A stretch of DNA of 64,000 bases from Acidobacteriota bacterium. GTDB taxonomy: Bacteria; Acidobacteriota; Terriglobia; Bryobacterales; Bryobacteraceae. A program made the translations under genes and the position numbers. Position 1 is the stretch's first letter; each line of letters starts with the position of its first letter. Positions 31,821-43,163 of this stretch are shown one piece after another. The notes below the pieces were generated by a model. That model had not been told where the DNA came from. It did not search any database and saw only the letters and a program-made list of their open reading frames with translations. The DNA lies in the NCBI GenBank assembly GCA_016213775.1, contig JACQZR010000009.1:1-64000 (forward strand), read 5' to 3'.

Positions 31821-32819
31821 ATGGTTGGTTTGATTTGCCTGGAAGGACTTGGGCCCTCGTACCCGGAAAGCTTCATGAGAAAGCTTGCGAGGGAATGGGC
31901 CTACGGGCCCGCGGAGTATGTGGACAACGAGGATGGCTTGAACATCGACCGCAAAGCCTCGTGGGCGATGTACCACACCTTGAAGTATTTTGAGTCGTAT
32001 CCGGATCTGAACGGACTCATTGTGGCGGGCTACAGCCAGGGCGGCGCGGCCGCCATCAAGTATGCACACGAACTGAAGAAGTACGGCTGGCGCCTCGACC
32101 TGCTGGCATTGTTCGACGCCGTATCCCGCGACCCCTACGGCGGAAACGGCGTCTGGTTCGATCCCCTCATCCCGGACAATGTGAAGGCCACCGTCCATGC
32201 GATGCGGAACCCCGCCACCCTCTCGCGTCCGGCTTGGGGGAACTGCGGACGCAGCGCGCCGAACGACTACTGGAGCAAGTATTTCTGGGTGACTCACGGC
32301 GGAGCCAGCGGCTGCGACTACCTCGCCTACCCAAGCGGTCCTCCGAATCCCGACAAGATCGTCTGGGAGACTCTGATGGGCGGGCGCGGATGGGGCAAGG
32401 AACACTACACGCTCGTCACCGAAGGCCAGGACTGGAGGGGAGCCGGCGAGCTCTGGCAGTGGATGTACCCCACCATCAAGACCTTTGGCCAGCACCTGAA
32501 TCTCAGCGGCGAATCGCCCTGGGTCGAGGATGCGCCCAAGGGCAACTCGACACCCAAACCCGCCAACGGCGGCAACGGCAAACCTCCAACCACCGGCGGC
32601 AATACATACCAGGTGGTCAAGGGGGACAGCCTGTCGCTCATCTCCGGAAGATTCTATGGCGACGTCCTGCTCTGGCCCGTGATCTGGGACCGCAATAAGG
32701 CCGTGGTGGGCAACAACCCCAACCTCATTTATCCGGGCCAACGGCTGACCATCCCTTCGATTAGCGCCTACAACCAAAGCCAGCTCTCCTCCATCCGCCA
32801 GCGCGGACGAAACTGCTGA
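31821..32819 (+). CDS. Alpha/beta-hydrolase-like protein with C-terminal LysM, no signal peptide
   Basis: 332 aa. The N-terminal 230 residues look like a cutinase-like alpha/beta hydrolase: nucleophile elbow GYSQGGAAA (Ser72), Asp99 in LLALFDAVSRD and a candidate His159 in WVTHGGAS. A low-complexity G/N/P/T linker (about 238-261) leads to a LysM domain at 262-312 (TYQVVKGDSLSLISGRFYG ... NLIYPGQRLTIPS), then a conserved tail ending RQRGRN. There is no signal peptide or membrane segment. A paralogue follows 71 bp downstream. It could act on an acyl or peptidoglycan-linked ester after non-Sec export or lysis; this is inference. Confidence 0.75.
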   Translation: MVGLICLEGLGPSYPESFMRKLAREWAYGPAEYVDNEDGLNIDRKASWAMYHTLKYFESYPDLNGLIVAGYSQGGAAAIKYAHELKKYGWRLDLLALFDAVSRDPYGGNGVWFDPLIPDNVKATVHAMRNPATLSRPAWGNCGRSAPNDYWSKYFWVTHGGASGCDYLAYPSGPPNPDKIVWETLMGGRGWGKEHYTLVTEGQDWRGAGELWQWMYPTIKTFGQHLNLSGESPWVEDAPKGNSTPKPANGGNGKPPTTGGNTYQVVKGDSLSLISGRFYGDVLLWPVIWDRNKAVVGNNPNLIYPGQRLTIPSISAYNQSQLSSIRQRGRNC

Positions 32820-32890
32820 CCCACCCGCTACGAATTCGTGAGCCTTCCGCCGCCGGCTTTACGAGTTCCCTGGTGAGGAGCAATGAAACA

Positions 32891-33910
32891 ATGAGTTCAA
32901 TCATCTACGCGGGGGTCGGAGGGACGTTCAGCGATTTCCTGGGCGGAATCGGCTGGGGAAACAACAACGGTTACATCGCCGAAAACGGGCCGGACACCTT
33001 CGTCAAGAATCTCGCCATCGAGTGGCCGTACGGCCCCGGCAAACTCTATTACCGCGGCCCTGGCGTGGACGGCGTCGGCACCAACACCACCATCGTCCAC
33101 AGGCTCGTCTCCGAAGTCATGGAACTGCGTGGCAAGATGAGCGACTGCAAGGGCGTTGTCCTCTGCGGGCACAGCCGTGGTGGGGCCGCGGTGGTGGTGG
33201 CCGCCCGGCGCCTCATGATGCGCGGTGTGGACGTGGACGCGCTCATCCTCCTCGATCCCGTCAACTGCACCCCCTGGCCGGAATCCCACGCTATCCCCAG
33301 CAACGTGAAACACGTCATCAAAGCCATGCGTAACCCCTTCACCAAGTCCCGCCCCCTGTGGGGCAACTGTGGCACCATCTGGAACCCCTTCACCACCTCC
33401 TGCGATTGGGATCACTTCTACGGCACGCACGCCGCCATGGGCGGCCAGGAATGGAAAGCGGACAGCCTCGTCGGCGGCTATATCTACGAACTGCCGGAAA
33501 TCGGCCCCACCATGGTTACACTTTCCGACGACGTCGCCGCGCGCGCCGATGTCTGGAACTTTTTTTACCCTAGGATGAGGAAGATCTGCGATGCGCTGAT
33601 CGCTTCGGGACAGGGCGCGGGTCCTCGACACAGTGGGAAGCCCGTCACCGGCCAACCCGTGGGTGGCGGCATACCGGTCCTCAACGGCCAGAAGCATACC
33701 GTGGTGAGCGGCGAGAGCCTGTCGCTCATCTCCGGGAAATACTGGAAAGATGTTCTTCTCTGGCCGATCCTCTACAATGCCAATAAGGCAGTCGTGGGCT
33801 CTGACCCGAACAAGATCTTTCCCGGTCAGAAACTGACTGTTCCCAGCATCGCCGCCTACAGCCAGCAGCAATTGAGCCAAGCCCGTACACAGGGACGTAA
33901 CTGGCACTAA
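32891..33910 (+). CDS. Paralogous alpha/beta-hydrolase-LysM protein, no signal peptide
   Basis: 339 aa. Same layout as the preceding gene: GHSRGGAAV elbow (Ser95), Asp122 in LILLDPVN and His180 in YGTHAAMGG at the position equivalent to His159 of the paralogue. The signature AMRNPFTKSRPLWGNCG is shared with it (AMRNPATLSRPAWGNCG). LysM lies at about 270-323, with the tail QLSQARTQGRNWH. ATG at 32891 follows a GGTGAGGAG stretch 13-21 bases upstream. Start MSSIIYAGVGGTFSDFLG is not a signal peptide. The two genes are a tandem duplication with diverged catalytic halves. Confidence 0.75.
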   Translation: MSSIIYAGVGGTFSDFLGGIGWGNNNGYIAENGPDTFVKNLAIEWPYGPGKLYYRGPGVDGVGTNTTIVHRLVSEVMELRGKMSDCKGVVLCGHSRGGAAVVVAARRLMMRGVDVDALILLDPVNCTPWPESHAIPSNVKHVIKAMRNPFTKSRPLWGNCGTIWNPFTTSCDWDHFYGTHAAMGGQEWKADSLVGGYIYELPEIGPTMVTLSDDVAARADVWNFFYPRMRKICDALIASGQGAGPRHSGKPVTGQPVGGGIPVLNGQKHTVVSGESLSLISGKYWKDVLLWPILYNANKAVVGSDPNKIFPGQKLTVPSIAAYSQQQLSQARTQGRNWH

Positions 33911-34335: not shown

Positions 34336-34382
34336 GCGAACTCATGATAGCCGATGTGGCGGTTCCGGCTTACCATGGAACA

Positions 34383-35108
34383 ATGCACTTCGCCGAGGAG
34401 ATTCTGTTCGCAGCCGGCCGCCGTGGACCGTGGGCCATGTTCTTCGCCTCGCTGATTTACTTCGGGCTGATGTATGCGAGCTTCGCCGGGCTGGGATGGC
34501 TGCTGTTCCGCCGCCTGCTGCCCGCGTTGCGGATCGGGCGTCCGATCGATGGGCGTCCTTTGAAGGACGGGCAGATCGAGAATGAGATCCGCCGCTCGCT
34601 GGGGAGTATTTTTGTATTCTCCTGCTATGCGCCACTCACCGAATACGCCTATCGACATGGGTACATACACGTGAGCTGGGACTATCAGTGGCCTTTGGCG
34701 ATCTTCCAGTTGATCCTGCTGTTCGCCTGGAACGAGGTGCATTTCTACGTGTGCCACCGGCTGCTGCACACGCGCTGGCTGTACCGCCATGTGCACCGCA
34801 TCCATCACGAATCCGTCGTCGCCACCCCATTGGCCATTTACAGCTTCCACTGGTTTGAGGCGCTGCTGTTGGGGAGCGTCATTTTCCTGCCGCTGTTCGC
34901 CTGGCCGTTCGAATTCCCTGCCCTCGTCCTTCTACCTGTCATGAGTCTCATCTTCAACACCATTGGCCACTCGAACTACGATGTCTTCGCGGGCACCCGC
35001 TACTCAGCGAGCGTCGAGCACAGCGCGCATCACCACCGCGTGGCTGGAAACTACGGCTTCTATCTGCCGTTTCTCGACGACTGGTTCGGTACGAGGCTAT
35101 CGCAATGA
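34383..35108 (+). CDS. Membrane fatty-acid hydroxylase / sterol desaturase superfamily protein
   Basis: 241 aa. Four or more helices and the histidine clusters of the diiron membrane hydroxylase superfamily: HFYVCHRLLH (His120, 125, 129), HRIHH (138-142) and HSAHHH (213-218). Family enzymes hydroxylate or desaturate acyl chains or sterols at the membrane. The ATG at 34383 leaves 47 bp to the divergent gene; an in-frame ATG at 34344 is also possible. The stop overlaps the next start (ATGA), so it is translationally coupled to the ketosynthase-oxidase fusion. Substrate is likely an acyl chain made or altered by that partner; this is inference. Confidence 0.85.
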   Translation: MHFAEEILFAAGRRGPWAMFFASLIYFGLMYASFAGLGWLLFRRLLPALRIGRPIDGRPLKDGQIENEIRRSLGSIFVFSCYAPLTEYAYRHGYIHVSWDYQWPLAIFQLILLFAWNEVHFYVCHRLLHTRWLYRHVHRIHHESVVATPLAIYSFHWFEALLLGSVIFLPLFAWPFEFPALVLLPVMSLIFNTIGHSNYDVFAGTRYSASVEHSAHHHRVAGNYGFYLPFLDDWFGTRLSQ

Positions 35109-36958
35109 AGGCTTATTTGACGGGGTTGGGGAGCTTCCTTCCGGGACCGCCGGTGACCAACGATGAGATGGAAGACTACCTCGGGCGGATCCACGGAAAA
35201 CCGTCGCGGGCGCGGCTTCGCATCCTCAAACAGAACGGTATTCAATCGCGCCACTACGCCATCGACAAGCAGCAGCGGACACTCTATTCGAATGCGCAGA
35301 TGGCGGCATTGGCGATTCGCAATGCGCTCGAAAACAGCAGCGTGAACGCTGAGTCTGTCGATTTCCTCGCGGCAGCCACGGCGCAAGGGGATCTGCCGCT
35401 ACCCGGGTTCGCCAGCATGGTGCATGGCGAGTTGCAGACGCCACCGTGCGAAATCGCGTCACTGCATGGCGTGTGCGCCAGTGGCATGATGGCCCTGCGG
35501 GCGGCAGCCCTGCAAGTGGAGGCGGGACACAAACGCGTGGCGGTGTCCTGCGCCAGCGAGTTTCCCAGCCGCCTGTTCAAATCGACACGCTTTGAAGCGC
35601 AGGGGGAGCACAGCCCCGAATTCGACACGGAGTTCCTTCGCTGGATGCTCTCCGATGGGGCCGGCGCCGCCATTGTCGAGCCGGAACCACGCGGCTTGTC
35701 ACTGGAAATCGAGTGGATGGAACTTCGCTCCTTCGCCAACCGCTATTCACCCTGCATGTACGTGGGCCCATCAAAGAACGGCCACCCGATGCCATCGTGG
35801 CTCGACTACGAAAGCTTCCACGAGGCGGCCAATCAAGGCGCAATCAACCTGCGCCAGGATATCCGCATGCTGGACGACGTGGTGCGCTGTGCTGTCGATG
35901 GTGCGCTGCGGCTGATGGAACAGGGCCGTCTCGATCCGAATCAGATTGACTGGCTGCTGGCCCACTACTCCTCGCACGTCTTCCGCCAGCAATCGTATGA
36001 GCTCGCATGGCGCGGCGGTCTTCAGATTCCCTACGAACGCTGGTTCACCAACCTTTACACGAAAGGCAACGTGGGGTCGGCCTCATTGTACGTGTTGCTC
36101 GACGAGCTGTACCACAGCGGAAAGCTACAGCCCGGACAGCGTATCTTCTGCCTCATCCCCGAGAGCGGCCGGTTCCTGTTCGCTTACATGTTGCTGAAGG
36201 TAGTGGAAGGCCCGAAGGCCGCGGCGGGACCTCGCAAAACCACCAGCATTCCAATGCCCCGCAGCGAGTCACCCTCCATCCAGGTCTCCTCTGACCCGCA
36301 GCAACAGCGGCTGGTACGTGAGCTGGCCCGCGTGTGGATCGACTTTGAAGACCGCCTCGCGCGCGTGCCCGCAATCGCCCGCCTCTACAACGGCGACTTC
36401 ACCGTGGATGACTACCGGCGGCTGTTGTTCAATCTGCGCCAGCAGGTGATCGACGGGTCACGCTGGATTGCGCGCGCGGCATCCAACATCACGGCCGAGT
36501 ACTTCCCCGTCCGCAGCGCGTTCATCTCGCACACCAGCGACGAGCATCGCGACTACGAAATGATCGAACGCGATTTCGTATCCGTGGGTGGAACGCTGGA
36601 GGAGATTCGCGGCGGCCGCAAGAACATCGGCAGCGAGGCGCTGTCGTCTTACGTGCTGCAACGCGCCAGCCGCGAGAATCCCTTCGATCTGATCGGCGCC
36701 ATGTTCATCGTCGAAGGCCTCGGACAGCGCGTCGCGCGCGGTTGGGGGGAGCGCATCCGCGAGGTGCTCGATCTGCGTCCGCAACAGGTCTCGTTCCTGC
36801 TCTATCATTCCGTCAGCGATGTGAAGCATTTTGAGCGCCTCGATCTCGCCGTGGCCCAAGGAATGCTCACTGCCGCGATGGTGGATGAAATTGTGAAGTG
36901 CGCCAAAGTCACCGCGCGCCTTTACGCGCTGCAACTGGAAGAACTGGACCAATTCTGA
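35105..36958 (+). CDS. Beta-ketoacyl-ACP synthase III fused to a haem-oxygenase-like diiron oxidase domain
   Basis: 617 aa. Residues 1-370 are a KAS III/thiolase-fold enzyme with a full triad: Cys124 in HGVCASGMMA, His287 in LLAHYSSH and Asn322 in KGNVGSAS. A linker of about 30 residues leads to a helical domain (400-617) of the haem-oxygenase-like diiron oxidase type. Its helix-3 motif YHSVSDVKHF (His568-x3-Asp572-x2-His575) has the ligand spacing known in SznF-type enzymes; HTSDEHRDYE (476-485) and Glu537 are candidate further ligands. The fusion suggests that the acyl condensation product is oxidised by the attached domain. Coupled to both neighbours by stop/start overlaps. Product unknown. 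Confidence 0.82.
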   Translation: MKAYLTGLGSFLPGPPVTNDEMEDYLGRIHGKPSRARLRILKQNGIQSRHYAIDKQQRTLYSNAQMAALAIRNALENSSVNAESVDFLAAATAQGDLPLPGFASMVHGELQTPPCEIASLHGVCASGMMALRAAALQVEAGHKRVAVSCASEFPSRLFKSTRFEAQGEHSPEFDTEFLRWMLSDGAGAAIVEPEPRGLSLEIEWMELRSFANRYSPCMYVGPSKNGHPMPSWLDYESFHEAANQGAINLRQDIRMLDDVVRCAVDGALRLMEQGRLDPNQIDWLLAHYSSHVFRQQSYELAWRGGLQIPYERWFTNLYTKGNVGSASLYVLLDELYHSGKLQPGQRIFCLIPESGRFLFAYMLLKVVEGPKAAAGPRKTTSIPMPRSESPSIQVSSDPQQQRLVRELARVWIDFEDRLARVPAIARLYNGDFTVDDYRRLLFNLRQQVIDGSRWIARAASNITAEYFPVRSAFISHTSDEHRDYEMIERDFVSVGGTLEEIRGGRKNIGSEALSSYVLQRASRENPFDLIGAMFIVEGLGQRVARGWGERIREVLDLRPQQVSFLLYHSVSDVKHFERLDLAVAQGMLTAAMVDEIVKCAKVTARLYALQLEELDQF

Positions 36959-37845
36959 TGAACGTCACTGAACCATTCGATAAGGCGCCATACGACCCAA
37001 ACGATCCGAATCCGTGGCTGGCGCTGTACCTCGACATGAGCCTGCCGCTGCCGGATGAAGTGAAGGCGGCATTGCTGGCCAACTGTAGTTCGCGCTCGCG
37101 CCAGTTCCTGCTGCCGCTGATCCGGCCGATGGCGAAGATGAGCATCATGGCGTTCCAGGTGCTCAAGATCTTCATTCCCAACTGGCTCACCTCATCGCGC
37201 ATTCTGCACTACACCATCTACCTCGGCTTGAAGTGGTTCGTGCGGCCGGATGCGAATTACCTCATCCTGCGACATTTCCACCTGGGCTCGGAGATTCTGC
37301 AATTCGTGGCGTCCAACGTCTGCCCGGAGATTCCGCTGCGGCCGCTGCGCCCACGCGATCTGCGCGGTCTGATCGACAACACGTTCCTCCAGCACGATCT
37401 CAACATCTACAATTTCATCATCCGGCTCAACCTCGAGTTGAAGGCCCGGGGCAAGCAGATTGAACCGAAGACGCACATGCGGTTCGACATGGTGACCTCG
37501 GGGCCGTTCGATATCGACGTGGCCAGCCTGCCGGACGGTCCCCTGAATATTCTCGATCTGGAGACGGCGATCGAAATCTACACGCCGCTCTACCAACTGC
37601 TGCTCACCGACAGTGACTTCTGGCGTGCCTGCAATTCGCTGCAATTGGACGAGACCGTAGCCATCTACTGCGCCCGGCTGTTGAACGATCCGAGTTACGT
37701 GAGCCTGGTGAACAACAAGCACCCTCTCGTTCCGCTGTCGACACTGCAGGCGGGCTACCGTCTGCTGCTGCACGGTCTTGCGGCTGAATGCCTGCATGCC
37801 ACGCTCGTGCGCCACAAACTCGCGGCGAACATGCATTCGACCTGA
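36958..37845 (+). CDS. Protein of unknown function in the ketosynthase-oxidase operon
   Basis: 295 aa, mainly helical, no signal peptide. A hydrophobic stretch lies at about 50-95 (RQFLLPLIRPMAKMSIMAF; ILHYTIYLGLKWFV). His/Glu-rich helices follow (LRHFHLGSEILQFV, NTFLQHDLNIYNFI, HGLAAECLHATLVRH), reminiscent of metal-binding helical bundles, but I cannot assign a family. The ATG at 36958 overlaps the preceding stop as TGATG, which fixes the start and argues for equimolar production with the fusion enzyme. It could be a membrane-associated partner, acyl acceptor protein or second oxidase. Confidence 0.75.
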   Translation: MNVTEPFDKAPYDPNDPNPWLALYLDMSLPLPDEVKAALLANCSSRSRQFLLPLIRPMAKMSIMAFQVLKIFIPNWLTSSRILHYTIYLGLKWFVRPDANYLILRHFHLGSEILQFVASNVCPEIPLRPLRPRDLRGLIDNTFLQHDLNIYNFIIRLNLELKARGKQIEPKTHMRFDMVTSGPFDIDVASLPDGPLNILDLETAIEIYTPLYQLLLTDSDFWRACNSLQLDETVAIYCARLLNDPSYVSLVNNKHPLVPLSTLQAGYRLLLHGLAAECLHATLVRHKLAANMHST

Positions 37846-37895: not shown

Positions 37896-38624
37896 ATGGC
37901 GAAACCAGCAGTCACCAACAAGCCGATGTTCTGGGTGGAAAAGCAAGCCTGGGACTTTCCCACCATCTGGGAGGCGATTGGGCGCAACAACAAGTCCAAA
38001 GTGCCCAACGAGATGATCGCGGTGATCTTCTTCGAGGAGACCTCGTTCGTAAACACCCAGCAGGCGGGCAAGAACGGCCCCGCAGTAGGGTTCGGTCAGA
38101 TCGAGGTCGGCAATCGCGACAAGGTGCCGTTCTACCGCTGGCTATGTGAAAAGAAAGGCGAAACCGCCTGGACGGTCTCCGACCTGCTGATGAGCGAACT
38201 GACCAAAGTGAACCTCAGCGGACCGGCGCTGGTGGAAAAGCGCAACCTTCAGGAGAAGGTGCGAACAAAGATACTCGGATCGAATGAATACTCCGTCCAG
38301 ATCATGTGCTACTACTACGAATGGCTCGGAACAGCGGCCAGTAAGGACTTGAGCGGCATCATCAGCGCCCAGATCGGCTCGCATCTGGAATACCGCACGC
38401 GGTTCCAGCTCGGTTACGACGCTTTGAAGGCCGCACGAACCGCCACCGGCGCCGAACGGGCCAAACTTCGAACACAGTACATTGACGCCTTGAACCTCGC
38501 CAAACGCCGCCAGTCGAGCGAGCCCAAGACCAACAAACAGAACCCTATACCGGAAAAGGACTATACGGTATTTTGGGACTGGGTCCTGCCGGAAGAGTTT
38601 CTGCGCAAGCAGTCCGTCAATTAA
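37896..38624 (+). CDS. Lysozyme-like (SLT-type) protein without signal peptide
   Basis: 242 aa. Residues about 35-75 look like the catalytic core of a soluble lytic transglycosylase: AVIFFEETSF (Glu48) and AVGFGQIEV, matching the ES-x-F and GxxQ motifs. The remainder is helical (SVQIMCYYYEWLG ... SHLEYRTRFQLGYDALKAAR). No leader peptide. GAGGAG nine bases upstream of the ATG at 37896 supports the start. It follows the acyl operon by 50 bp with its own ribosome-binding site. Like the LysM hydrolases upstream, it looks like a wall-targeting enzyme released without Sec. The family assignment rests on short motifs. Confidence 0.6.
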   Translation: MAKPAVTNKPMFWVEKQAWDFPTIWEAIGRNNKSKVPNEMIAVIFFEETSFVNTQQAGKNGPAVGFGQIEVGNRDKVPFYRWLCEKKGETAWTVSDLLMSELTKVNLSGPALVEKRNLQEKVRTKILGSNEYSVQIMCYYYEWLGTAASKDLSGIISAQIGSHLEYRTRFQLGYDALKAARTATGAERAKLRTQYIDALNLAKRRQSSEPKTNKQNPIPEKDYTVFWDWVLPEEFLRKQSVN

Positions 38625-38687: not shown

Positions 38688-39899
38688 GTGCAAATCATCT
38701 TGCGGATTTCGTTGTTGTTCCTGATTACCGTTTCGCTCTACGGAGGTGAGGCCGAGGCGCTGGCCATCGACCGCAATATCCAGGCGCGCCATCTTCCCTT
38801 CTCCACCATCCTCGATCCGTTTCTTGACGAGAATGACTTTATAACCGGCTATACCCGTTGCGGCGATTCGGCCATCTGGACCGGGCATTACCTCGCCGCG
38901 CTGGCGTTCCGATATAAAGTAACTCAATCGCCGGAGGCCCTCGACAATGCTCGCCGCCTGGTCATCGCCCTGCAATACCTGATGAATGTCACTGGACGCA
39001 AGCTGCTTTCGCGATGTGCGGTTCGCGCGGATTCGCCAATCGCACCTGGAATCATTCAGGAAGAGGCGCATCATGGCGCATACATCGGCAGCTACGCCGG
39101 CGACGACTTCTACTGGGTCGGCAACACATCGCGGGACCAGTATGTCGGCGTGTTCTGGGGACTCGGCGTCGCTAACGAACTGATTGACGACCCGGAGATT
39201 CGCGCCTATTGCGCTGATGTCGTCACGCGGCTGCTGGACGGATTATTAGAAAACGGCTGGAACATTGTCATGCCGGACGGAAGAGCGGTGACGACGTTCA
39301 CCATCCGGCCCGATCAGCAACTCTCCCTACTCCTTGTGGGCCAGCGGGTCAACCCGAATCGCTTTCGCGGTGAGTACAGCAGGATGAAGGGGCTTGCGCC
39401 GACGGTTCCGGTACCGGTCGGCGTCGAAGCCCTGGATACCCGCAATTCTTACTTCAAATTCAATCTGGATGCATTGACCTTCTATAACCTCTTGAGCTAC
39501 GAAGGCGGGGCGTTCTACCGTTTCTGGTACAACCGCGGATACGACATCCTGCACGACACGGTGAAGGACCACCAGAATGCACATTTCAACATGATTGACC
39601 GGGCGCTGCACGGCCCGGATGAGTCACGCGATGAGGAAACGCGGCGCTTGCTGGACCAATGGCTGCTGCGCCAGCGCCGCGACCACATCGTCGACCTGCG
39701 AGGGATATATCCATCCTGCGGCAGTCCGGATGATGCCTGCGATCCTGTACCGGTTGCCGAGCGTCCTCCGACGGATTTCCTGTGGCAGCGCAATCCGTTC
39801 CAGTTGTGGGGCGGGTTGTACGGGACGATTGAAGGCGCAGGTATCGACTACATTCTGCCGTATTGGATGGCCAGATATTACGGCGTGTTGAGCGAGTAG
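38688..39899 (+). CDS. Secreted protein of unknown function, (alpha/alpha) barrel-like
   Basis: 403 aa with a signal peptide (ILRISLLFLITVSLYGGEA). Sequence is rich in helices with aromatic/acidic motifs suggestive of a glycoside-processing (alpha/alpha) toroid: TRCGDSAIWTGHYLAAL, GSYAGDDFYWVGNTSRDQY, WNRGYDILHDTVKDHQNAHF-like segment near 280-300 and FQLWGGLYGTIEGAGIDY at the end. I cannot name a family. The GTG start at 38688 is supported by AGGGG eight to twelve bases upstream. Its stop lies 2 bp from that of the convergent RDD gene. Confidence 0.7.
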   Translation: MQIILRISLLFLITVSLYGGEAEALAIDRNIQARHLPFSTILDPFLDENDFITGYTRCGDSAIWTGHYLAALAFRYKVTQSPEALDNARRLVIALQYLMNVTGRKLLSRCAVRADSPIAPGIIQEEAHHGAYIGSYAGDDFYWVGNTSRDQYVGVFWGLGVANELIDDPEIRAYCADVVTRLLDGLLENGWNIVMPDGRAVTTFTIRPDQQLSLLLVGQRVNPNRFRGEYSRMKGLAPTVPVPVGVEALDTRNSYFKFNLDALTFYNLLSYEGGAFYRFWYNRGYDILHDTVKDHQNAHFNMIDRALHGPDESRDEETRRLLDQWLLRQRRDHIVDLRGIYPSCGSPDDACDPVPVAERPPTDFLWQRNPFQLWGGLYGTIEGAGIDYILPYWMARYYGVLSE

Positions 39900-40745: not shown

Positions 40746-43163
40746 TTGAGCCTTCCCTCGCACGATTCCCAGCTCTCCCTTCTACTTAGTAACACAAAAA
40801 CCTTCACGTGTCACTTCTTTTTTGTTTGTAACTTGTTGTTTCCAATCTCTCTACCCGTTTCTGCTCAAATTCTTCGCCCAGGACAGCCAGGAATGGGGCG
40901 GCCGATTGGCCCGTCACCCGCCGTACTCGACCCCAACATCAAGGCGAACAAGTCGCATCCGGATTGCCCGCAACTAAGCTCCGATTTGGAGCGGCCGACG
41001 GCGGAATACGTCTCCATCTTCGCTATCAGCAAAGAGAGCATGAAGGGCGTCACGACGCTTCGCGGCAGCGCCTGCATCCAAACCACGGACATGCTGTTGG
41101 AAGCGGACGAGGTCGTTTACGACGAGAATAGCGGGCAGGCGCGGGCCAACGGCAATGTGCACTTCCACCACTTTGAAGGCGGCGAGGAAATCTGGGCTTC
41201 GCGGGTGGAATACGACGTCGAGGAGCAATCGGGCAAGTTCTACGATGTCCGGGGAAGGGCGCCCACCAAGATCGACCCAAGGCCCGGCATCCTCAGCACC
41301 ACCAATCCGTTCACGTTCCAGGGCGAGTGGGCCGAGCGAATGGATGGGCACTACTCGCTGCATAACGGCTTTGTCACCAACTGCCGCGTACCGGGCCCTA
41401 TCTGGATGCTGCGCTCCCCAAAGATCGACATCTATCCCAAAGACCATGCGATGGCCCGCAATGCCTGGTTCAAAGTACTGAATGTTCCGATCTTCTACTC
41501 GCCGGCGTTCTACAAGTCGCTCAAGAGGCAGCCTCGTAAAAGCGGGTTCCTCACTCCGAACGCGGGCAACAGTTCGCGGCGAGGCAAGATGGTGGGCGCG
41601 GGATACTATTGGGCGATCAACCGCAGCTACGACGCCATGTACCGCGGGCAACTCTTCACGCAACGCGGCTTCGCGCACACGATGGACTTCCGCGGCAAAC
41701 CCACTCAGAACTCCGATTTCAACCTCTATGTGTATGGCGTGAACGATCGCGGCCTTCTGCTTGACGATGGAGAACGGCGCAAAGAAGGTGGATTCCTGGT
41801 GGCCTTTGACGGGCGTATTGACCTTGGCAGGGGCTTCTATGCGCGCGGGCTCGTGAACTATCTCTCGAGCTTCCGCTTCCGGCAGGCCTTCACCGAAAGC
41901 TTCAATGAAGCAGTATTCGCCGAGGTGCAGTCGGTGGGGTTCGTGACCAAGGACTGGTCGGATTTCGGCTTCACGGTTTCGGCCTCGCGCAAGGAGAACT
42001 ACCAGAGCACCGCGGACGACGACGTGATCAGTGTCCGCCGGCTGCCACAGGCGGAGTTCACTGTGCGTGACCGCATCGTCAGCGAGAAGGTACTGCCGGT
42101 GTGGGTCTCGCTCGAATCCACGGCGGGTTTCTTGAGCCGCACGCAGCCGGAGTATCAGACCCGCGCTTACGTCCAGCGGGCCGATTTTCAGCCGCGCATC
42201 ATGACGGCGCTTCGCTGGAAGGACTTCCACATCATCCCGGCGTTCTCGATTCGAGAGACGTTCGTGGCGTCGCGCTTCGATCCGCAGATCAACACCGTTT
42301 CGGGGGAGAACATCGTGCGCAGCGCTCGCGAGTTCACCATCGACGTCATTCCCCCGTCGCTGGCTAAAGTCTTTGATGCGCCGGAATGGATGGGCACGCG
42401 GATGAAGCACGTCATCGAGCCGCATTTGAGTTTTCGATACACGGGCGGCATCGAGGATTTCCGCCAGTTGATCCGTTTTGACGAGACCGAGCTGATGTCG
42501 AACACTCGCGAGGCCGAGGTCTCGCTGGCCAACCGGTTCTTTGTGAAGCGGCGCAGCGGTGAAGTGTTGGAGGCGTTCTCGTGGGTGGTGAGACAAAAGA
42601 GATATTTCGACCCGACCTTTGGCGGTGCGCTCTCGGCGGATTCGCGTAATGTGCTCTCCACATCGCTGGATATCACCGGGTACAGTTTTCTCGCCGGCCC
42701 GCGGAACTACTCGCCGGTCATCTCGCAGATGCGGGTGAATCCTGTATCGAGCGCGGGCATTGAATGGCGCACCGATTATGACCCGCTGTTGAAACGGTTT
42801 TCCAATTCGAGCATCACGGCGGACGCGCGCCTCTCGCGCTACTTCGTATCGCTTGGCCATGCGTATGTGCGGAACGATCCGCGGATTTCGCCGCCGTTCA
42901 ACCAGTTCCGCGGGCTGTTTGCGATCGGTCAGGAAAACCGGCGCGGCTGGAACGCCGCGTTCTCGGCGTTCTACGATTTCCGCGAGGGGATCATGCAGTT
43001 CGCCACAACGCAGGTAACGTACAACTACGATTGCTGCGGGCTCAGTTTTCAATACCGCCGCTTCAGCTTCGGCACGCGTAACGAGAACCAGTTCCGGGTG
43101 GCGTTTGCGATCGCGAATATCGGAAGCTTCGGGACCCTGAAGCGGCAGGAGCGGATCTTCTGA
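40746..43163 (+). CDS. lptD: LPS-assembly protein LptD
   Basis: About 805 aa. A leader FFFVCNLLFPISLPVSA ends near residue 40. An OstA/LptA-like beta-jellyroll spans about 90-190 (VTTLRGSACIQTTDMLLEADEVVYD; EQSGKFYDVRGRA). The C-terminal barrel (about 220-805) shows the LptD motifs (WMLRSPKIDIYPKDHAM, PIFYSPAFYKSLKRQPRKSGFLTP) and ends with strands rich in aromatic residues. It inserts LPS into the outer membrane, partnered by LptE (not seen here). Only weak starts exist; TTG 40746 gives a long basic n-region, so the true start may be slightly downstream. Confidence 0.87.
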   Translation: MSLPSHDSQLSLLLSNTKTFTCHFFFVCNLLFPISLPVSAQILRPGQPGMGRPIGPSPAVLDPNIKANKSHPDCPQLSSDLERPTAEYVSIFAISKESMKGVTTLRGSACIQTTDMLLEADEVVYDENSGQARANGNVHFHHFEGGEEIWASRVEYDVEEQSGKFYDVRGRAPTKIDPRPGILSTTNPFTFQGEWAERMDGHYSLHNGFVTNCRVPGPIWMLRSPKIDIYPKDHAMARNAWFKVLNVPIFYSPAFYKSLKRQPRKSGFLTPNAGNSSRRGKMVGAGYYWAINRSYDAMYRGQLFTQRGFAHTMDFRGKPTQNSDFNLYVYGVNDRGLLLDDGERRKEGGFLVAFDGRIDLGRGFYARGLVNYLSSFRFRQAFTESFNEAVFAEVQSVGFVTKDWSDFGFTVSASRKENYQSTADDDVISVRRLPQAEFTVRDRIVSEKVLPVWVSLESTAGFLSRTQPEYQTRAYVQRADFQPRIMTALRWKDFHIIPAFSIRETFVASRFDPQINTVSGENIVRSAREFTIDVIPPSLAKVFDAPEWMGTRMKHVIEPHLSFRYTGGIEDFRQLIRFDETELMSNTREAEVSLANRFFVKRRSGEVLEAFSWVVRQKRYFDPTFGGALSADSRNVLSTSLDITGYSFLAGPRNYSPVISQMRVNPVSSAGIEWRTDYDPLLKRFSNSSITADARLSRYFVSLGHAYVRNDPRISPPFNQFRGLFAIGQENRRGWNAAFSAFYDFREGIMQFATTQVTYNYDCCGLSFQYRRFSFGTRNENQFRVAFAIANIGSFGTLKRQERIF

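Follow-up and report, generated by a model that had tools for sequence, protein, structure and literature searches.

Fusion of a StlD/DarB-type ketosynthase with a haem-oxygenase-like domain, encoded next to DUF6999 in diverse bacteria: a possible bifunctional lipid-ring synthase

In the darAB pathway, DarA, the dialkylresorcinol aromatase, is encoded beside DarB, a ketosynthase (KS) of the StlD/DarB type; the product reported for DarB is 4-carboxy-2,5-dialkylcyclohexane-1,3-dione (PMC5515871), and the two proteins have been tabulated as DAR-aromatase and DAR-cyclase, respectively (PMC3949708). The haem-oxygenase-like dimetal oxidases (HDOs), such as UndA, SznF, CADD, BesC, and FlcD, belong to PF14518; according to the FlcD paper, about 85% of HDO groups carry the E-H-X-H-D/E-H motif, from which FlcD itself departs at the last two ligands (PMC11363339). 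Another HDO-domain protein, DtpC of Acinetobacter, has a newly reported role (PMC13232832), and the main text of that report does not mention ketosynthase, ketoacyl, StlD, or resorcinol. Here we describe a gene that joins these two families in a single chain. It is located in a 64,000-nucleotide stretch of DNA from an Acidobacteriota bacterium (GenBank assembly GCA_016213775.1, contig JACQZR010000009.1, positions 1 to 64,000), hereafter referred to as the window, and is followed by a gene for a DUF6999 protein. Sequence comparisons lead us to propose, with a probability of about 0.4, that its product is a bifunctional lipid-ring synthase, i.e., a cyclohexanedione synthase that carries an O2-dependent oxidase of its own, the likely outcome being a resorcinol formed by oxidative decarboxylation, perhaps in place of the DarA step.

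The original prediction, made from the DNA alone, was that a β-ketoacyl-acyl carrier protein synthase III (KAS III) and a haem-oxygenase-like diiron oxidase domain are fused in one chain, and the fusion itself is confirmed. A single open reading frame (ORF) on the forward strand, from ATG at 35105 to TGA at 36958, specifies a protein of 617 residues in which both Pfam domains, ACP_syn_III_C (35.7 bits; cut-off, 26.6) and Haem_oxygenas_2 (PF14518; 35.0 bits; cut-off, 28.9), score above their thresholds. Its features are as follows.

35105 to 36958, forward strand: fusion gene (617 residues), encoding a StlD/DarB-type ketosynthase followed by a haem-oxygenase-like domain
35111 to 36205, forward strand: ketosynthase domain, residues 3-367, with C124, H287, N322, and the conserved E152 (NF005293 and StlD 5gk0 matches, alignment)
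36206 to 36295, forward strand: inter-domain linker, residues 368-397, of low confidence at 374-379 (AlphaFold2 model)
36296 to 36940, forward strand: haem-oxygenase-like helical domain, residues 398-612 (PF14518, 3dde profile match, hhalign, model)
36452 to 36454, forward strand: residue 450, acidic throughout (Asp in 60 and Glu in 22 of 82 sequences)
36530 to 36568, forward strand: alpha-1 motif H476-x3-E480-H481-x-D483-x4-E488, which replaces the canonical Glu-xn-His (alignment; register from 3dde and hhalign)
36713 to 36715, forward strand: E537, at the canonical alpha-2 Glu position (82 of 82 sequences; lines up with the AYE motif found in ordinary PF14518 proteins)
36806 to 36829, forward strand: H568-x3-D572-x2-H575, the canonical alpha-3 metal triad (82 of 82 sequences; alignment)

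By sequence, the KS half is of the StlD/DarB type and not an ordinary KAS III. The top NCBIfam model is that of the StlD/DarB subfamily (NF005293), matched over positions 1-378 of 378 at 408.9 bits (curated cut-off, 450), and the second is DarB (NF053539), matched at 358.4 bits (cut-off, 550), whereas the next model reaches 80.7 bits and fabH reaches 72.3 bits; a stand-alone DarB from Chitinophaga scores 593.8 bits in the NF005293 comparison. The best match in PDB is StlD (5gk0; E-value of 1.7e-85, about 290 bits across the whole KS). Residues C124, E152, H287, and N322 align with the Cys, Glu, His, and Asn of StlD and are invariant in all 82 aligned sequences, that of the window included; E152 is presumably the counterpart of E154, which is important in StlD. 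This alignment omits four sequences, namely, L024 (a frame-broken metagenome-assembled genome [MAG]), L022 (a plasmid), and P0002 and P0003 (the same genes as those of L069 and L102). In a tree of 61 KS sequences (38 fused, 6 from split loci, 12 stand-alone, and 5 FabH), the FabH proteins split off at 100/100 and the KS of the window groups with StlD/DarB. The KSs of the fused and split systems form one clade (100/99) inside StlD/DarB, within which a single long-branched stand-alone KS from Streptomyces is nested. The fusion KS differs from the described StlD/DarB proteins in this separate clade, in the attached haem-oxygenase-like domain, in scoring under both cut-offs, and in usually lacking DarA. 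An ordinary FabH-type KAS III is ruled out by the NCBIfam scores and the tree, so that of the "complete KAS III" in the original prediction, the intact Cys-His-Asn set stands and the family assignment does not.

Since the KS is of the StlD/DarB type, the expected intermediate is a ring. The original prediction that the two halves condense and then oxidise an acyl substrate within one chain is a fair reading of a ketosynthase joined to a haem-oxygenase-like domain with plausible ligands. Its suggested products were an alkene, an aldehyde, or a ketone, which could arise if a simple Claisen condensation gave a linear β-keto acid or ketone that the oxidase then converted. The intact Cys-His-Asn set would allow such a reaction, and UndA, a fatty acid decarboxylase of the same superfamily, yields 1-alkenes; however, its scores place the KS much nearer to StlD/DarB than to FabH, and in the tree it falls with the cyclases. 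Linear products are therefore improbable, and a ring that is oxidised or aromatised is the likelier outcome.

Structure prediction, suggested at the outset as a check on the C-terminal half, bears out a haem-oxygenase-like helical domain. In the AlphaFold2 model, built from 82 sequences (mean predicted local distance difference test score [pLDDT], 91.2; predicted template-modelling score [pTM], 0.70, so that the relative placement of the domains is uncertain), an alpha/beta KS half is connected through a loose linker to an all-helical half spanning residues 398-612. Foldseek comparison with viral models returned a type III polyketide synthase (E-value of 1.6e-13) and a phage "Haem oxygenase-like" protein (E-value of 1.3e-3, probability of 1.00, TMt of 0.63); the output carries no query ranges, and these matches were allotted to the two halves by their nature and length. 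A profile of 41 HDO domains of this type matched one PDB sequence, the haem-oxygenase-fold protein 3dde (E-value of 1.8e-8). Against ordinary PF14518 proteins from the phylum (25 of the 30 such loci fetched), the same profile aligned in hhalign at 96.8% probability over 191 columns. By sequence profile and model, the C-terminal half has the haem-oxygenase-like fold.

The putative metal site is only partly canonical. E537, H568, D572, and H575, each invariant in the 82 sequences, fall on the alpha-2 Glu and the alpha-3 H-x3-D-x2-H of the HDOs, so the label "UndA/SznF class" is apt as far as fold, alpha-2 Glu, and alpha-3 triad are concerned. It does not extend to the alpha-1 Glu-xn-His pair, which is not present in its usual form in either the 3dde or the hhalign alignment: E480 aligns with the canonical Glu, and the position of the His lands on D483 (3dde) or Y484 (hhalign). 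In its place, the helix 464-493 carries another conserved set, H476, E480, and D483: H476, E480, and E488 are found in 82, D483 in 81, and H481 in 80 of the 82 sequences, and residue 450 is acidic in all of them. H476 and H481 are candidate substitutes for the alpha-1 His. Owing to their i, i+4, i+7 spacing, H476, E480, and D483 can share one helix face, and the metal site appears to be rearranged relative to the usual HDO set. About 9% of HDO groups gave no strong ligand prediction and may use other motifs (PMC11363339), so the altered alpha-1 motif may not be unique. The altered pair could also be taken to mean that the domain serves in docking, in cofactor binding, or in metal-free catalysis rather than as an oxidase, and PqqC of the wider superfamily does lack a metal cofactor (PMC11363339). 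We consider this quite unlikely, as H476, E480, E537, H568, D572, and H575 are retained in all 82 sequences, as well as in six proteins in which the domain is split off from the KS (see below), just as a metal site predicts.

The favoured scheme, a ring synthase with a built-in oxidase, would include three steps. Judging by its family membership, the KS would take two thioesters from fatty acid synthesis, one β-ketoacyl and one 2-enoyl, and cyclise them into the same 4-carboxy-2,5-dialkylcyclohexane-1,3-dione as reported for DarB. The fused domain would then bind metal, probably two irons, through its altered ligand set, activate O2, and oxidise the nascent ring before its release. Most likely, the ring would end up as a 2,5-dialkylresorcinol through oxidative decarboxylation or dehydrogenation; resorcinol formation by decarboxylation would be an UndA-like step on a ring, and DarA would become unnecessary. 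Finally, DUF6999 would act on the same intermediate, and in some lineages a membrane hydroxylase, a desaturase, or a similar enzyme would modify the acyl chains. The overall step proposed for the fused domain is the one performed by DarA, which looks flavodoxin-like by eye, unlike the haem-oxygenase-like domain.

The co-occurrence of DarA was examined with a single query, the neighbour of the DarB gene in a Chitinophaga genome, which was assigned by position and has no Pfam or NCBIfam match. In a sample of 147 genomes of the Chitinophaga family, a StlD/DarB KS (E-value of 1e-50 or better) was found in 48, 47 of which also have DarA; in the lone DarA-less genome, the KS sits at the edge of a contig. 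In contrast, among the 62 fusion genomes searched (out of 83 loci), DarA was detected in 3, one of which is known to have a DarB apart from the fusion, and was not found in 59, including the window's own genome. This contrast fits replacement of DarA by the fused domain and fits equally well a product that does not become aromatic. The cyclohexanedione could, for example, be made as above and then be hydroxylated, dehydrogenated, or cleaved in the ring or side chain by the oxidase, yielding a non-resorcinol lipid such as a hydroxylated dione, a quinol, or a ring-opened acid. We regard such an outcome as possible, if doubtful. It shares the KS step with the resorcinol scheme, a changed set of ligands may bring changed chemistry, and the hydroxylase and desaturase partners at some loci, together with DUF6999, suggest more than aromatisation; known HDO chemistry is varied and includes C-C cleavage and N-oxygenation (PMC13108848). 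On the other hand, it makes less direct use of the 4-carboxylate and singles out no specific reaction.

Stand-alone StlD/DarB-type KS genes were also seen in other settings. Two Bacteroidales plasmids (L118 and L103) encode a lone KS of this type directly after a TetR regulator, with no DarA annotated in the stretch shown. A Streptomyces plasmid (L117:5712-13119) encodes a StlD/DarB-like KS along with acyl carrier proteins, a flavin adenine dinucleotide (FAD) monooxygenase, FabF, and a P450, possibly an undescribed biosynthetic cluster.

A search for the fusion across genomes, another check proposed with the original prediction, showed that it recurs. At 85 of 86 loci (the best 80 of 487 relatives in genome contigs plus 6 others), coming from at least seven phyla, both domains share one ORF, which rules out a chance or assembly fusion; in L024, a frame break places part of the KS in a second ORF, leaving 84 intact fusions. 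Two pairs, L013/L069 and L014/L102, appear to be the same contigs, and 83 loci remain after setting aside the two duplicates and the plasmid. The distribution is patchy: a full-length match was found in the window's own genome only among 61 genomes (its own and its relatives) and in 5 of 396 genomes of the phylum sample, ruling out a lineage-wide housekeeping gene. In a Pseudoalteromonas plasmid (L022) and five proteobacterial genomes, KS, HDO, and DUF6999 are encoded by separate adjacent genes in the same order. These five genomes share a class, probably Alphaproteobacteria, with L041, a MAG titled Rickettsiales; 289 genomes of that class were searched and 6 have DUF6999, the sixth being L041's own, in which KS and HDO are fused. 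Because the split KSs nest within the fused ones in the 61-row tree, the split forms are easiest to read as the result of an early fusion that was later undone; repeated fusion is a possible alternative. The genome of Caulobacter vibrioides, a laboratory organism included as a control, has matches to all three families, counted as presence per genome.

The genomic setting, which, like the cyclising type of the KS, goes beyond the original prediction, places the fusion gene between two others.

34344 to 35108, forward strand: membrane fatty acid hydroxylase, PF04116 (Pfam, 80.9 bits; cut-off, 31; hydrophobic segments)
36958 to 37845, forward strand: DUF6999 (PF22523) protein (Pfam, 385.7 bits)

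The hydroxylase, whose histidine boxes look intact by eye, overlaps the start of the fusion gene through ATGA (35105-35108), and the fusion gene overlaps the DUF6999 gene through TGATG (36956-36960); because of these overlaps, the three genes look translationally coupled. A scan for promoters and terminators gave no promoter-like sites (1.4 expected) and six terminator-like ones (3.7 expected). Neither the fusion protein nor DUF6999 has a hydrophobic segment of membrane-spanning strength. Across the 86 loci, DUF6999 is encoded on the strand of the fusion at 81, at 72 of which its ORF starts no more than 120 nucleotides after the fusion. Of the five loci without it, three (L014, L070, and L074) have sequence for no more than 0.7 kb beyond the fusion, and in L102, apparently the same contig as L014, DUF6999 is found 3 kb downstream; L096 and L101 show no DUF6999 despite further sequence. 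Other neighbours are optional, at least one being present at 25 of the 86 loci and none in the examined stretch of the remaining 61: the hydroxylase at 15 loci, a fatty acid desaturase at 7 (PF00487 confirmed for one), and a His-rich membrane protein at 6. The last of these (about 190 residues; L022:7442-7999, L029, L030, L031, L041, and L044) is encoded near the KS-HDO-DUF6999 genes and carries conserved HE-x3-H and WE-x-H-x-H motifs; the one copy tested has no Pfam or NCBIfam match, and the family is possibly a new membrane metalloenzyme. A cluster of ATP-binding cassette (ABC) ATPases, found at 13 loci and on the opposite strand at 11 of them, was read as background.

DUF6999 itself has a confident helical model (pLDDT of 93.0; L022 was left out of the prediction), for which Foldseek against PDB gave 202 matches up to an E-value of 10, none at or below 0.001 and the best at 0.23. 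Six residues, H107, H147, D148, D201, D232, and E233 (numbering from 36955), are invariant in 58 DUF6999 sequences and would suit a metal or acid-base site. In the phylum sample of 396 genomes, the 5 that carry the fusion are also the only ones with full-length DUF6999. DUF6999 appears to follow the fusion and not the KS, because two genomes with a StlD/DarB-type KS and no fused domain found (G062 and G351, the latter on a contig of only 3.1 kb) have no DUF6999. A 40-residue C-terminal fragment of DUF6999 (G069:C9:214439-214558, L130), perhaps a remnant, lies in a sixth genome of this sample, where no fusion was found at an E-value threshold of 1e-20. The close tracking of the fusion by DUF6999, its invariant His, Asp, and Glu residues, and the confident model could mean that DUF6999 is the aromatase or the main oxidase and that the fused domain performs another step; with no fold or family that would assign DUF6999 a known chemistry, we hold this to be rather improbable.

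Several points weigh against the resorcinol-forming synthase that we favour. The proposed chemistry is read from sequences and models; the KS scores under the curated StlD/DarB cut-offs; the canonical alpha-1 pair is altered, and diiron binding is a guess. A single positional DarA query from Bacteroidota may miss divergent DarA proteins elsewhere, the absence of DarA fits a product without aromatisation just as well, and DUF6999 could be the aromatase. In addition, no carrier-protein cluster was recognised among neighbouring ORFs of at least 80 residues, a size close to that of carrier proteins.

Each half of the fusion belongs to a known superfamily; neither the union of the two, nor the altered ligand motif, nor the gene pair appears to have been described. 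No paper joining a StlD/DarB-type KS with an HDO, and no characterised example of the fusion, was found in the open-access literature, Caulobacter included (most subscription papers lie outside this search); the same search found no paper on DUF6999. The fusion links two enzyme families with no such link found in print, offers an orphan oxidase a concrete candidate substrate in the ring that the ketosynthase of the same chain would make, and gives DUF6999 a place in a pathway. Should the domain aromatise this ring, the DarA step would have been solved a second time by an unrelated protein; otherwise, a new lipid class over many phyla would be indicated. A broader proposal, which we put forward with considerable reserve, is that many bacteria share a new route to cyclic lipids in which a cyclohexanedione synthase with a built-in oxidase, its site rearranged relative to UndA, CADD, SznF, and BesC, works together with a DUF6999 protein of possibly unseen fold. 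The route would extend over Acidobacteriota, Planctomycetota, Verrucomicrobiota, Bacillota, Myxococcota, Cyanobacteriota, Bacteroidota, and proteobacteria, and its lipid would be a widespread bacterial metabolite that has so far escaped recognition. The matches in Caulobacter vibrioides suggest that genetics may be within reach.

Directly before the operon in the window, on the opposite strand, is a gene for a small zinc-ribbon protein (PF17032; 33952-34335). Downstream of DUF6999, two forward-strand ORFs (37896-38624 and 38688-39899; 242 and 403 residues) have no Pfam or NCBIfam match at an E-value of 0.1, and a long forward-strand ORF at 40746-43163 resembles an LptD-type outer membrane protein, as judged by eye from its sequence. 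Farther upstream, two adjacent look-alike proteins encoded on the forward strand (31821-32819 and 32873-33910), each with a C-terminal LysM domain, are probably a duplicated pair, and the second shows a weak alpha/beta-hydrolase match.

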